NCBI RefSeq assembly: GCF_029027405.1
Contig: NZ_CP093396.1
Span: forward strand, 124,001 to 188,000
Origin: Sulfurimonas sp.
Lineage (GTDB): Bacteria; Campylobacterota; Campylobacteria; Campylobacterales; Sulfurimonadaceae
DNA: 64,000 bases
Reading direction: 5' to 3'
Positions 23,631 to 55,980 of this stretch are shown in pieces; positions within the stretch are counted from its first letter, which is position 1; the number at the start of each line of letters is the position of its first letter. The notes beneath the pieces were generated by a model. That model made no database searches and was not told the DNA's origin. It saw nothing but the letters and a program-made list of their open reading frames with translations. A program made the position numbers and the translations under genes.

Positions 23631-23833
23631 TATTTAACACTTACGGCTGTTCCATAAACATAAAGCTCTGCAGCACCTGCAGCTACAGATGATGTAGAAA
23701 ATCGTACATTTACAATAGCATTTGCTCCCAAAGATTTTGCTTGAGATTGCATTCTTTGCATAGCTTCTTCTCTAGATTCACCTAAGAGTTCAGTGTAACC
23801 TTTTAGTTCACCACCAAAATTATTTTTAAAAAA
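23630..23833 (-). pseudogene. Truncated ybjQ-like gene (C-terminal half only)
   Basis: A frame of 67 codons from just after an in-frame TAG at 23836-23834 down to TAA at 23632-23630. It reads FFKNNFGGELKGYTELLGES through AELYVYGTAVSVK, which is the C-terminal two thirds of a soluble YbjQ protein. The N-terminal beta strands are missing and there is no start codon before NFGGE except internal ATGs. The stop overlaps the next gene's ATG, so a two-gene ybjQ operon appears to have lost the front of its first gene. Confidence 0.75.
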
Positions 23834-52327: not shown

Positions 52328-53146
52328 TTAGATGTCAAAAGTTTCTTTTACTTTTTCTTCAAACTTTTCATCACTTAACTCTTTTCTAAGAGAAACAACT
52401 GTTGTAGCTTCTATACCAACTGGTACAAAAATTTTAGAATTTTCATTTTCGATAATATTTTTGACAGCATCTGCTATTGGTTGTGGAGAGGAACCTTCGT
52501 TTATAATTGGTACAAAGTGAGATATTAAATCTTTATATGGTGAATCTTCAGAAGTTGTTTGTGCATTTACAAGAAGTCCATTTTTTACAAAGTTTGCACC
52601 AAAAAGCCAAGCTTGAATGGAGTGAACTCTTACATTGCAAGGAAGTGTTTCAAATCTCAAAGAATCAACTATACCCTCTATCACTGCATGTTTTGAAGCG
52701 TTATAATGTGCTAAGAAAGGAAGACCGATTCTTCCTAAGAATGAAGAGATATTGATAATCACACCACTTTTTGCTTCTCTCATTTTTGCTTCTCTCATAT
52801 AAGGAAGAACCGCATGAGTGACTTTTGAAAGACCAAGTACATTTACATCAAACTGGTTAAATATTTCTTCATCAGTTTCATCCTTAGCAGTCGTTAAAAG
52901 ACCGTAACAAGCGTTGTTTACAAGGACATCTATTTTTCCTTCTTTTTTGACAATCGCATCTACTGCTTTAGTGATACTATCTGTTTTTGTTATATCTATA
53001 TAGATGCTCTTAAGTGAAGAATCATCTGGCACAGCATCTATATCTCTTGTTCCAGCATATACAATATATCCATTATCAGCTAAACTTTTAGCTGTAATCT
53101 CACCCATATTTGAAATAACACTTGTTATTAAAACTACTATTGACAT
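52328..53146 (-). CDS. Short-chain dehydrogenase/reductase, copy 2 (altered nucleotide motif)
   Basis: A 272-residue SDR with catalytic S-Y-type triad positions: NNACYGL near 92, INISSFLGRIG near 130 and AHYNASKHAVIEG (Y-x-x-x-K) near 148. The usual TGxxxGxG dinucleotide motif is replaced by TSVISNMG at 8-15, so cofactor binding may be weak or changed. It is paralogous to the SDR at 54182-55000 (same length, shared VYAGTRDI). Substrate unknown. Confidence 0.88.
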   Translation of the reverse strand: MSIVVLITSVISNMGEITAKSLADNGYIVYAGTRDIDAVPDDSSLKSIYIDITKTDSITKAVDAIVKKEGKIDVLVNNACYGLLTTAKDETDEEIFNQFDVNVLGLSKVTHAVLPYMREAKMREAKSGVIINISSFLGRIGLPFLAHYNASKHAVIEGIVDSLRFETLPCNVRVHSIQAWLFGANFVKNGLLVNAQTTSEDSPYKDLISHFVPIINEGSSPQPIADAVKNIIENENSKIFVPVGIEATTVVSLRKELSDEKFEEKVKETFDI

Positions 53147-53250: not shown

Positions 53251-54171
53251 TTATTTTTTTAACAAATCTTTTGGATAAACTCCATAAAATTCATAAAATA
53301 GCTTTGAGAAATGTCCTTGATGTTTGTAACCAACTTCTTTGGCAATCTCACCAATATTTAAAAACTGCTCTTTGAGAAGTATGTTTGCTTTTTCAAGACG
53401 CAGTTTTTGAATATAGCCATAAATGGTGGTTTTATAGACTTTTTTAAATACTTTTTTTAGTTTTGATTCATTTGTCGCACACAAATGAGCCAATATACTT
53501 ATGCTAGGTGGACTTGTAAAACTACGCAGTAAAATAGCTTTAGAAGATCTTGCAATGCAGATTTCATCATTGCTAAGTTCATCATTTTGCATATCTACTA
53601 AAGCAAACCTATGAATCATAAACTCTAAAATATTATGCTCACACTTTATGCTGTTCATATAGTTATCACTCGAACTATTTATGATTTTCTCTATGATGTA
53701 TAAACTTATGGCATCTAATGGTTGAGTATGTATAAGTTCACAAGAAACTTCATCTTGAACTTTGTTGTATAAAAAATTTATGACTTCTTGTGAGTTTGAA
53801 CTTAGATATCTTTTTAGAATAAAATCGGCTATAAAAAGTACAAATATTTTCGTATCATCACCTTCGTTTATACTAAGTTTCAAATCCTGTCTTGAAGAAG
53901 TGAAAATATTTATACTATCTTCTTTTGCCACAAAAGTTTTTTTTGCAATATTATCTCTAATACTAAAGTCGCCTTTTTTACAAACAGTAATGACTACCAT
54001 CCTATCAAGGTTTTTTACTTTAAATTCTTTTTTGGATTTTAAGTCTAGATGCACATCAAAAAAGACTATGCCATTAGATATGTCAACTCGCGAGATATGC
54101 TCTTTTTTATGTTCATATAGTTTAGTTATTTTGTAGTTAGCGTCTGTAATATTAAAAAAGAAACTATCCAT
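53251..54171 (-). CDS. AraC-family transcriptional regulator
   Basis: A 306-residue regulator. The N-terminal 200 residues form a sensor part with strands such as IVFFDVHLDLKSKKEFKVKN and no recognised ligand signature. The C-terminal AraC domain (about 208-305) has two helix-turn-helix units ending IGEIAKEVGYKHQGHFSKLF and YGVYPKDL. It lies 10 bases after one SDR gene and 104 before the other, so it probably controls both. The arrangement resembles SDR loci activated by an electrophile or small aromatic compound, which is inferred. Confidence 0.9.
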   Translation of the reverse strand: MDSFFFNITDANYKITKLYEHKKEHISRVDISNGIVFFDVHLDLKSKKEFKVKNLDRMVVITVCKKGDFSIRDNIAKKTFVAKEDSINIFTSSRQDLKLSINEGDDTKIFVLFIADFILKRYLSSNSQEVINFLYNKVQDEVSCELIHTQPLDAISLYIIEKIINSSSDNYMNSIKCEHNILEFMIHRFALVDMQNDELSNDEICIARSSKAILLRSFTSPPSISILAHLCATNESKLKKVFKKVYKTTIYGYIQKLRLEKANILLKEQFLNIGEIAKEVGYKHQGHFSKLFYEFYGVYPKDLLKK

Positions 54172-54181
54172 TAGATGCTCA

Positions 54182-55000
54182 CTATAAGTTATAGTACTCT
54201 ATAACTCGTCGCTCAAAGTCTTCATCGCTTAATTCTTTTCTCATCGGTATAAATTTTTTTGCCTTATCGCCAACAGTAGCACGAGCTGGAAAGTTGTCAT
54301 TTTGAATTATTTCTAAGATTATATTAGAGATTCCTTGAGGTGAATTTCCATTATTTATTTGTGCAACTATCACAGGTGCGAGGTTTGAAACAAGAGATGC
54401 ATAAGGAGAGTTTTTGTCAAAAGTTTCAAAGTTTGTAACAAGGTTATCTCTTGCAAATTTAGTGTCAAAAAATCCTGGCAAGATAGAATGAACTCTTATA
54501 TTAAAATCTTTCAATTCATAACGAAGAGAGTCTGTAATGCCTTCAACCGCGTATTTACTAGAGTTGTAGAGAGTTAAAAGAGGAAGCCCGATTTTTCCTA
54601 AAAATGAAGAAATATTTATGATGATGCCATTTTTATTTTCTCTCATAATAGGAATGACTGCCTTACACATTCTTAAAACTCCAAATACATTTACATTAAA
54701 TTGAGAAAACATCTCTTCTTCGCTAACATCTTCAACTGTTGAGACTAGCCCGTAACCAGCGTTGTTTATAAGTATATCTATTTTCTTGTGCTTATCATAG
54801 ATGCTTTGAACTGCTTTGTTTACACTAGCCTCATCAGTAATGTCAAGATTTATGGGTATGATATTTTCTTCTTGTAAATCTTGGAGTTTTTTAATATCTC
54901 TTGTTCCTGCATAAACTAAAAAATCTTGTTTTGATAAAAACTCTGTAGCAGCCTTGCCCATGCCTGAACTGGCACCTGTTATTAAAACTATTTTTTTAAT
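54182..55000 (-). CDS. Short-chain dehydrogenase/reductase, copy 1, with apparent ATT start
   Basis: A 272-residue SDR if begun at the ATT at 55000. From there it reads (I)KKIVLITGASSGMGKAA, with a complete TGASSGMG nucleotide motif. The first ATG in frame (54961) would delete half of that motif. GAGG lies 7 bases before the ATT and a TGA stop lies two codons upstream. Starting here gives exactly the length and alignment of the paralog at 52328-53146. INNAGYG, NISSFLGKIG and LYNSSKYAVEG (Y-x-x-x-K) are intact. Substrate unknown. Confidence 0.85.
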   Translation of the reverse strand: MKKIVLITGASSGMGKAATEFLSKQDFLVYAGTRDIKKLQDLQEENIIPINLDITDEASVNKAVQSIYDKHKKIDILINNAGYGLVSTVEDVSEEEMFSQFNVNVFGVLRMCKAVIPIMRENKNGIIINISSFLGKIGLPLLTLYNSSKYAVEGITDSLRYELKDFNIRVHSILPGFFDTKFARDNLVTNFETFDKNSPYASLVSNLAPVIVAQINNGNSPQGISNIILEIIQNDNFPARATVGDKAKKFIPMRKELSDEDFERRVIEYYNL

Positions 55001-55086
55001 GATAATACCTCATTGTAAATTAAGTATATGAGTATATCATACACAATTATAAAATCACTATATATATCAATAACGCAGGACAAAAA

Positions 55087-55980
55087 ATGGACTTTTTTAA
55101 ATATATACACGCAGTAGGAACTGGACCTAAGGGTAACAGAGATTTAAGTTTTGAAGAATCAAAAGATATGATGGATCAGATTTTGAATCAGAGTATTCCA
55201 AGTGAACAAACAGCAGCCTTCCTTTTAGGTTGGAGACTAAAACCAGAGACAATAACGGAGTTTCGTGGAGCGATAGAAGCTTGTGACGCTTACATAAAAA
55301 AAACTACAGTTGCCAACTCTTTAGAGCTTGGTTATCCCTTTGATGGAAAAGCTAAAAACCCTTATATTTTTCCTCTTGTAGCAAAAGTTCTTGAAGAATC
55401 AGGACTTAACCTTGTTGTTATTGGAGATGAGCTTACTCCTGCAAAAGGTGGGATAACTATCAAAGATATCGTTACAAACATAGACCTACACAAAAATGCT
55501 CACTACTTTGACCGTGCAGACTTTTTCCCTAAGATAAGTGACCTTACCGAACTTCGTATGAAACTAGGTCTTCGCAGTGGTTTTAACACTATAGAAAAAC
55601 TTCCTGGTGTTGCAAACAGTGAGTATGCTATCACAGGTGTGTTTCACAAGCCGTATGTAAAAAAATATGTAAAGATATTCTCTGATAGATATAAAAGATT
55701 TGCACTTATCCAAGGAAATGAAGGAACACCTGAGCTATTTAGTAAAGGTCGTTTATGGATTTCAAATGGTGATGAGGTAGAAGAGATAGTAGTTGACCCA
55801 GCAAACTACGGAATTAACTATGCAAAATCATCAGATGCTATAACTTTAGAAGACTCACTAAGTCAGCTAAATAACCCATCTGATGAGTATATGAAACTTG
55901 CAAAACTAAACGCTGCAGTTTATCTTTTTGTAACCCAAAATGCTTCTAGTATTGATGAGGCTTGGGAAAAACTAAACTAA
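55087..55980 (+). CDS. TrpD2/YbiB-like glycosyltransferase family 3 protein
   Basis: A 297-residue protein of the nucleoside phosphorylase/anthranilate phosphoribosyltransferase fold. An N-terminal helical domain has IPSEQTAAFLLGWRLKPET (GT3_N, about 37-55), then a second domain with YAITGVFHKPYVKKYVKIF and RFALIQGNEGTPEL. The catalytic glycine-rich loop of true TrpD (GTGGD) is absent; GYPFDGKAKNPYIFPLVAKV takes that region. That is the pattern of TrpD2/YbiB, a nucleic-acid-binding relative. True anthranilate activity is therefore unlikely. Confidence 0.82.
   Translation: MDFFKYIHAVGTGPKGNRDLSFEESKDMMDQILNQSIPSEQTAAFLLGWRLKPETITEFRGAIEACDAYIKKTTVANSLELGYPFDGKAKNPYIFPLVAKVLEESGLNLVVIGDELTPAKGGITIKDIVTNIDLHKNAHYFDRADFFPKISDLTELRMKLGLRSGFNTIEKLPGVANSEYAITGVFHKPYVKKYVKIFSDRYKRFALIQGNEGTPELFSKGRLWISNGDEVEEIVVDPANYGINYAKSSDAITLEDSLSQLNNPSDEYMKLAKLNAAVYLFVTQNASSIDEAWEKLN

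Follow-up and report, generated by a model that had tools for sequence, protein, structure and literature searches.

SDR1 coding region and predicted start

The SDR1 gene, located at positions 54182–55000 on the minus strand of the window, is very probably translated from an AUU codon at position 55000 under the direction of a Shine-Dalgarno sequence, and this weak codon, kept in part of the genus, would set a low output of the enzyme. The window is the 64-kb stretch of DNA analysed here, which corresponds to C1:124001-188000 of a complete 2.83-Mb genome. In the proposed mechanism, the GAGGU Shine-Dalgarno would set the AUU codon in the ribosomal P site, where the initiator fMet-tRNA (CAU anticodon) would pair with the first two bases and mispair at the third. 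A normal 272-residue dehydrogenase with Met as its first residue would then be made at a reduced rate, and retention of the weak codon as AUU, AUC, or AUA (collectively AUH) in part of the genus would hold the translation level low. A LapG-like protease and RlmN may use the same weak-start device.

From ATT to stop, SDR1 encodes a 272-aa classical short-chain dehydrogenase (PF00106, E 5.5e-49). The family motifs TGxxxGxG (as TGASSGMG), NNAG, and YxxxK (as YNSSK) are all found, and this set is complete only if reading begins at the ATT (54998–55000, minus strand). SDR1 resembles the PRK06182/PRK06179-type SDR oxidoreductases and KdsR-like proteins (NCBIfam) over its whole length and has the classical SDR motifs in common with them, but it scores under each curated cut-off among the matches listed.

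An in-frame TGA (55010–55012, minus strand) lies four codons 5' of the ATT and closes off any N-terminal extension; the frame runs TGA (55012-55010), GGT, ATT, ATC, and then ATT (55000-54998). The first-pass annotation had stated that no ATG, GTG, or TTG lies between this TGA and the glycine motif, and that the ATT follows GAGG (55011-55008) by 7 nt; inspection of the letters and the frame confirmed both. It had also matched the first residue of SDR1 to that of the downstream paralog SDR2, and the two do coincide, as both proteins have 272 aa and residue 4 pairs with residue 4, where the local alignment itself starts. The ATT start that it proposed is supported by the Shine-Dalgarno spacing, by the lack of a usable canonical alternative, and by AUU, AUC, or AUA at the same codon in orthologs, features by which SDR1 would belong to the AUH-start kind of gene.

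Start codons of SDR1 relatives

Relatives were sampled from 99 genomes, from 135 genomes of the genus, and from 398 of the order (strong matches in 40 and 53, respectively), with 32 further loci from one scan of named genome contigs. After removal of duplicates and weak matches, 109 rows remained, comprising 75 full-length SDR1-type and 34 SDR2-type genes. Rows with identical first 450 bases, matches below 44-47% identity, and matches beginning past residue 8 were left out, and the count of 75 leaves out SDR2 rows and incomplete SDR1 rows.

An isoleucine codon occupies the exact start position in 10 of the 75 distinct full-length SDR1-type genes. ATT is found in our genome and in L070, its nearest relative (87% identity); ATC in L071, L010, L073, L077, L043, and L029, the last from another family; and ATA in L080 and L146. 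From the upstream stop to the AUH codon, eight of the ten contain no ATG, GTG, or TTG. L077 has a GTG at -3, but it overlaps the Shine-Dalgarno (GAGGTG), and L043 has an ATG at -13, but it lies inside the -10 box TGCTATACT. The GTG or TTG codons found 3-5 codons inward in L080, L029, and L043 are too distant from the Shine-Dalgarno. L146 (genome G348), with its ATA within a 585-aa open frame and a poor Shine-Dalgarno, is a doubtful case that was retained in the count of ten and omitted from the SDR1 tree.

In the remaining 65 of the 75 genes, the site itself or its vicinity holds a canonical start; SDR1 function thus does not require the weak codon. According to the first-pass annotation, orthologs with ATG, combined with no protein made here, would speak against the ATT start; some orthologs do carry ATG at the same codon (for example L009 and L014), and others carry AUH. 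An AUH start without an ATG occurs in 0/34 SDR2 rows, L027 having an ATA with an ATG three codons earlier. The recurrence of AUU, AUC, and AUA among SDR1 relatives, together with similar genes in the same genome, points to a weak start signal kept by lineages and not to a sequencing slip.

Homology was also scanned in a pool of fetched loci (555 kb), where 198 of the 512 frames that could be tested were flagged. Among the matches listed, wherever all homologs extend beyond the first canonical start, the frame was either an SDR1 row or, to judge from its letters and place, an antisense shadow of infC or of an SDR gene.

Apparent AUH-started genes elsewhere in the genome

A coding-potential scan was run on 864 kb of the same genome (the window and 40 stretches, 31% of the genome) with 655 confident genes. 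Conducted blind, it disclosed an AUH codon behind a Shine-Dalgarno and before the first canonical start in three genes: SDR1, a LapG-like protease, and RlmN. The rates of such placement behind a Shine-Dalgarno were 3/143 for AUH codons versus 8/946 for other codons; three of the eight non-AUH matches adjoin AUH sites, two are in an AraC gene, one is a GTT site, and two fall in an IS-broken frame. With only 3 of 655 genes so arranged and AUH shared by 10 of 75 orthologs, the AUH start of SDR1 is more than chance.

The LapG-like cysteine protease gene (L169:10201-10848 = C1:2030201-2030848, plus strand) has its ATT start at L169:10228, with AAGGA 7 nt before it and a signal-peptide-like stretch after it. 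The protein scores over the cut-off of PF06035 and under that of NF045674 (E 1e-33). Its relatives in the genus comprise 52 distinct rows from 48 loci, with identical genes, matches below 45% identity, and matches beginning past residue 16 left out. AUH starts occur in 19 of the 52 (14 strict and 5 likely; ATT 9, ATC 7, ATA 3), a canonical start at the codon in 14 and just before it in 13, CTG in 3, and other states in 3; the family shows 11 start-state changes.

RlmN (L230:14090-15271 = C1:2804090-2805271, plus strand) has an ATC start at L230:14144 behind AAAGGA. Read from this codon, it reaches 431.9 bits against TIGR00048 (cut-off 290), with residue 5 aligned to profile position 4. ATC behind AAAGGA is present in 3 of 30 loci (our genome, G161, and G125); in the remaining loci an ATG lies at least two codons further in.

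The IS256-type transposase of L164 and L221 also lacks a canonical start, but we regard it as a frameshift element and not as an AUH case. The frames of this Zn-variant transposase (L221:17894-18835, plus strand; L164:18317-19156, minus strand) contain no canonical start in 170 codons, and in L221 an A7 run follows an ATG of a different frame, which suggests programmed frameshifting or slippage. Directly adjoining the L221 copy is a CBASS-type phospholipase fragment (NF041079; L221:18861-19364, minus strand), apparently broken by the IS.

Possible selection or drift at the start codon

Comparison of SDR1 with its nearest relative gave dN 0.073 and dS 0.836 (dN/dS ~0.09), indicating that the protein is under purifying selection. 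In a protein tree of 73 rows, from which the first eight residues were excluded, the clade of our gene has 26 rows, eight of them with AUH; outside it, AUH occurs in L029. The AUA of L080 and the AUC of L029 are perhaps separate origins.

The AUU start could also be real and yet a lineage accident, tolerated where little enzyme is needed and with nothing regulated; we give this neutral reading slightly less than an even chance. Orthologs differ in start state, the SDR1 tree requiring at least six changes, and the independent pairs do not suffice to establish any association. That the seven rows with the shared promoter type form a single AUH clade is neither rejected nor shown (p-AU 0.23), so an old AUH start drifting between AUU and AUC is possible. 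In this AT-rich composition, finding no G at a few tips would lack significance against neutral third-base drift. Against neutrality, the LapG family has recurrent AUH, CUG, and UUG starts across its 11 changes, and AUH persists in SDR1 across many synonymous changes, both hinting that AUG is not favoured at these sites.

Extending the idea of a retained weak start to the genus is a tentative step that we consider rather unlikely to hold. Here SDR1, the LapG-like biofilm protease, RlmN, and perhaps 5-10 more genes per genome would be kept under selection for AUU, AUC, AUA, or CUG starts, which would act as a translational attenuator whose output rises as initiation fidelity or IF3 activity falls, with infC outside the loop. 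Since SDR1 and LapG form natural sets in which a single codon is variously AUU, AUC, AUA, CUG, or AUG, selection for weak starts in bacteria is directly testable.

Shine-Dalgarno, leader, and promoter

The SDR1 Shine-Dalgarno GAGGT (55007–55011, minus strand) forms a duplex of -7.0 kcal/mol with the 16S rRNA tail. In four genomes of the genus (ours, G161, G102, and G106) this tail is GGATCACCTCCTTTCTAG, and GGATCACCTCCTTTC is also present in the fifth tail read, that of G083, a genome of another family. In nine of the ten AUH rows a Shine-Dalgarno with a match of 5-7 nt lies 5-8 nt upstream, the exception being the doubtful L146. The leader is GAGGTATTATC-ATT in our genome, GAGGTATTAGC-ATT in L070, AGGAGCTTAGC-ATC in L071, AGGAGAAAGC-ATC in L073, AGGAGAAAAT-ATC in L010, and AGGAGTTTCAA-ATC in L043; the letters vary among species, and what stays constant is the AUH codon and its spacing to the Shine-Dalgarno.

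A candidate extended -10 box, TGATATACT (55031–55039, minus strand), which is a consensus match only, lies upstream of SDR1, and a box resembling TGnTATACT/TGnTATGCT is found ~30 nt upstream in seven rows (our genome, L070, L071, L010, L073, L043, and L077). From the -10 consensus, the transcript would start ~24-25 nt before the ATT. With so short a predicted leader (~25 nt), upstream GTG or ATG codons, such as the GTG at 55044-55042 in our genome, should not be transcribed.

Mean Shine-Dalgarno pairing in SDR1 was -7.0 kcal/mol for AUH rows versus -4.6 kcal/mol for ATG rows (10 vs 24 related rows, p 0.001), and AUH rows of LapG also pair more strongly than ATG rows (19 vs 14 related rows, p 0.0009). 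A stronger Shine-Dalgarno would help a weak codon; such compensation is suggestive only, the independent pairs being too few for a claim. Folding of the leaders in 15 rows gave no feature that separates AUH rows. The Sulfurovum-type SDR1 orthologs L050, L053, L055, L056, and L058 look leaderless, with a TATAAT-like box ~7 nt before the ATG.

Other origins of the N-terminus

The next canonical start in the SDR1 frame is an ATG at 54959–54961 (minus strand), and a shortened protein made from this codon, or a decaying gene, seems improbable. No other canonical start lies in the 5' part of the frame, and the mechanical ORF list chose this one, giving SDR1 only as a 259-aa frame from 54961. However, the codon falls within TGASSGMG and, as the first-pass annotation had pointed out, cuts that motif, deleting half of it; the protein would lack its first strand and half the NAD(P)-binding loop. 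No Shine-Dalgarno precedes this codon, several orthologs (L060, L061, L133) do not have ATG there, and the dN/dS of ~0.09 excludes decay. Gene finders limited to ATG, GTG, and TTG truncate such proteins, SDR1 through its cofactor-binding motif, or misplace their starts.

Still less credible is a fusion of the frame of the GTG at 55044 to SDR1, through a frameshift or through slippage of the transcript on the A7 run that follows the ATT. The GTG frame does read to TTA AAA AAA TAG, where a -1 slip enters the SDR1 frame, but the AUH orthologs L010, L070, and L073 have no A7 run, the GTG adjoins the -10 box and has no Shine-Dalgarno, and the fused N-terminus would resemble no ortholog. A sequencing or assembly error hiding a true ATG is the most far-fetched, since the nearest relative has ATT and other genomes have ATC or ATA at this codon, excluding a base error or local slippage.

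IF3 and known AUH starts

The initiator tRNA reads AUU, AUC, and AUA with a third-position mismatch, which is disfavoured by IF3. If SDR1 is translated from its AUU, the protein would be made at low output and IF3 would discriminate against the codon here. In E. coli, infC and pcnB have AUU starts that are Shine-Dalgarno led and of low output, and infC is autoregulated by IF3. SDR1 has the AUU and the Shine-Dalgarno in common with them, although an SDR is without evident link to initiation. The first-pass annotation had remarked that such starts are usually tied to IF3 feedback, which is unsupported for this genus: infC begins with TTG in 37/37 loci, our genome included, a count in which one locus was read visually and one genome enters twice. 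Neither in our genome nor in the genus, then, does infC begin with an IF3-discriminated codon, and infC-type feedback is not indicated.

A study of S. aureus (PMC13009471) describes conserved AUU/AUA starts in cvfC1 (AUU), ccpN (AUA), and infC (AUA), with ~10% of the AUG output, rising to as much as 30% for ccpN when the medium is rich. Conserved AUH starts are a kind already known from print, in ordinary genes of S. aureus (PMC13009471), and the output of SDR1 may be reduced to the same order. ccpN and cvfC1 resemble SDR1 in being ordinary protein genes with a good Shine-Dalgarno and an AUH start conserved in relatives; their starts were shown by ribosome profiling and reporters (PMC13009471), whereas that of SDR1 is predicted from sequence. 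Two further differences are that infC has AUA in S. aureus (PMC13009471) and TTG in this genus, and that the orthologs of SDR1, unlike ccpN and cvfC1, show AUU, AUC, and AUA between them. A literature search, conducted mostly without full texts, found no recurrent AUH start in an SDR or in the LapG-like proteases of the genus.

Neighbouring genes and minor observations

An AraC-family regulator gene (53251–54171, minus strand; PF12833, E 9e-18) lies ~10 bp after SDR1 and points the same way; at 55087, a glycosyltransferase-like gene is divergently oriented. SDR2 (52328–53146, minus strand) has an ordinary ATG start and 272 aa. It is diverging fast in our genome only, with a degenerate glycine motif (TSVISNMG in place of TGASSGMG), a MREAKMREAK duplication, an extra residue after SKHAV, and a branch of 0.3 compared with 0.002 in the nearest relative. 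Elsewhere in the window, a YbjQ-like fragment (23633-23833, minus strand) covers profile positions 39-103 of 103 only, the N-terminal part being absent.

In L072 (genome G134), a near-identical 36-nt stretch precedes the conserved part of both SDR paralogs, giving them similar N-terminal extensions, and resembles a repeat that was inserted or converted. SDR1 and SDR2 are also present as a pair in two Colwellia-type gammaproteobacterial records (L062 and L065, ~62% and 51% identity to SDR1), which suggests that the pair may have been transferred between phyla.
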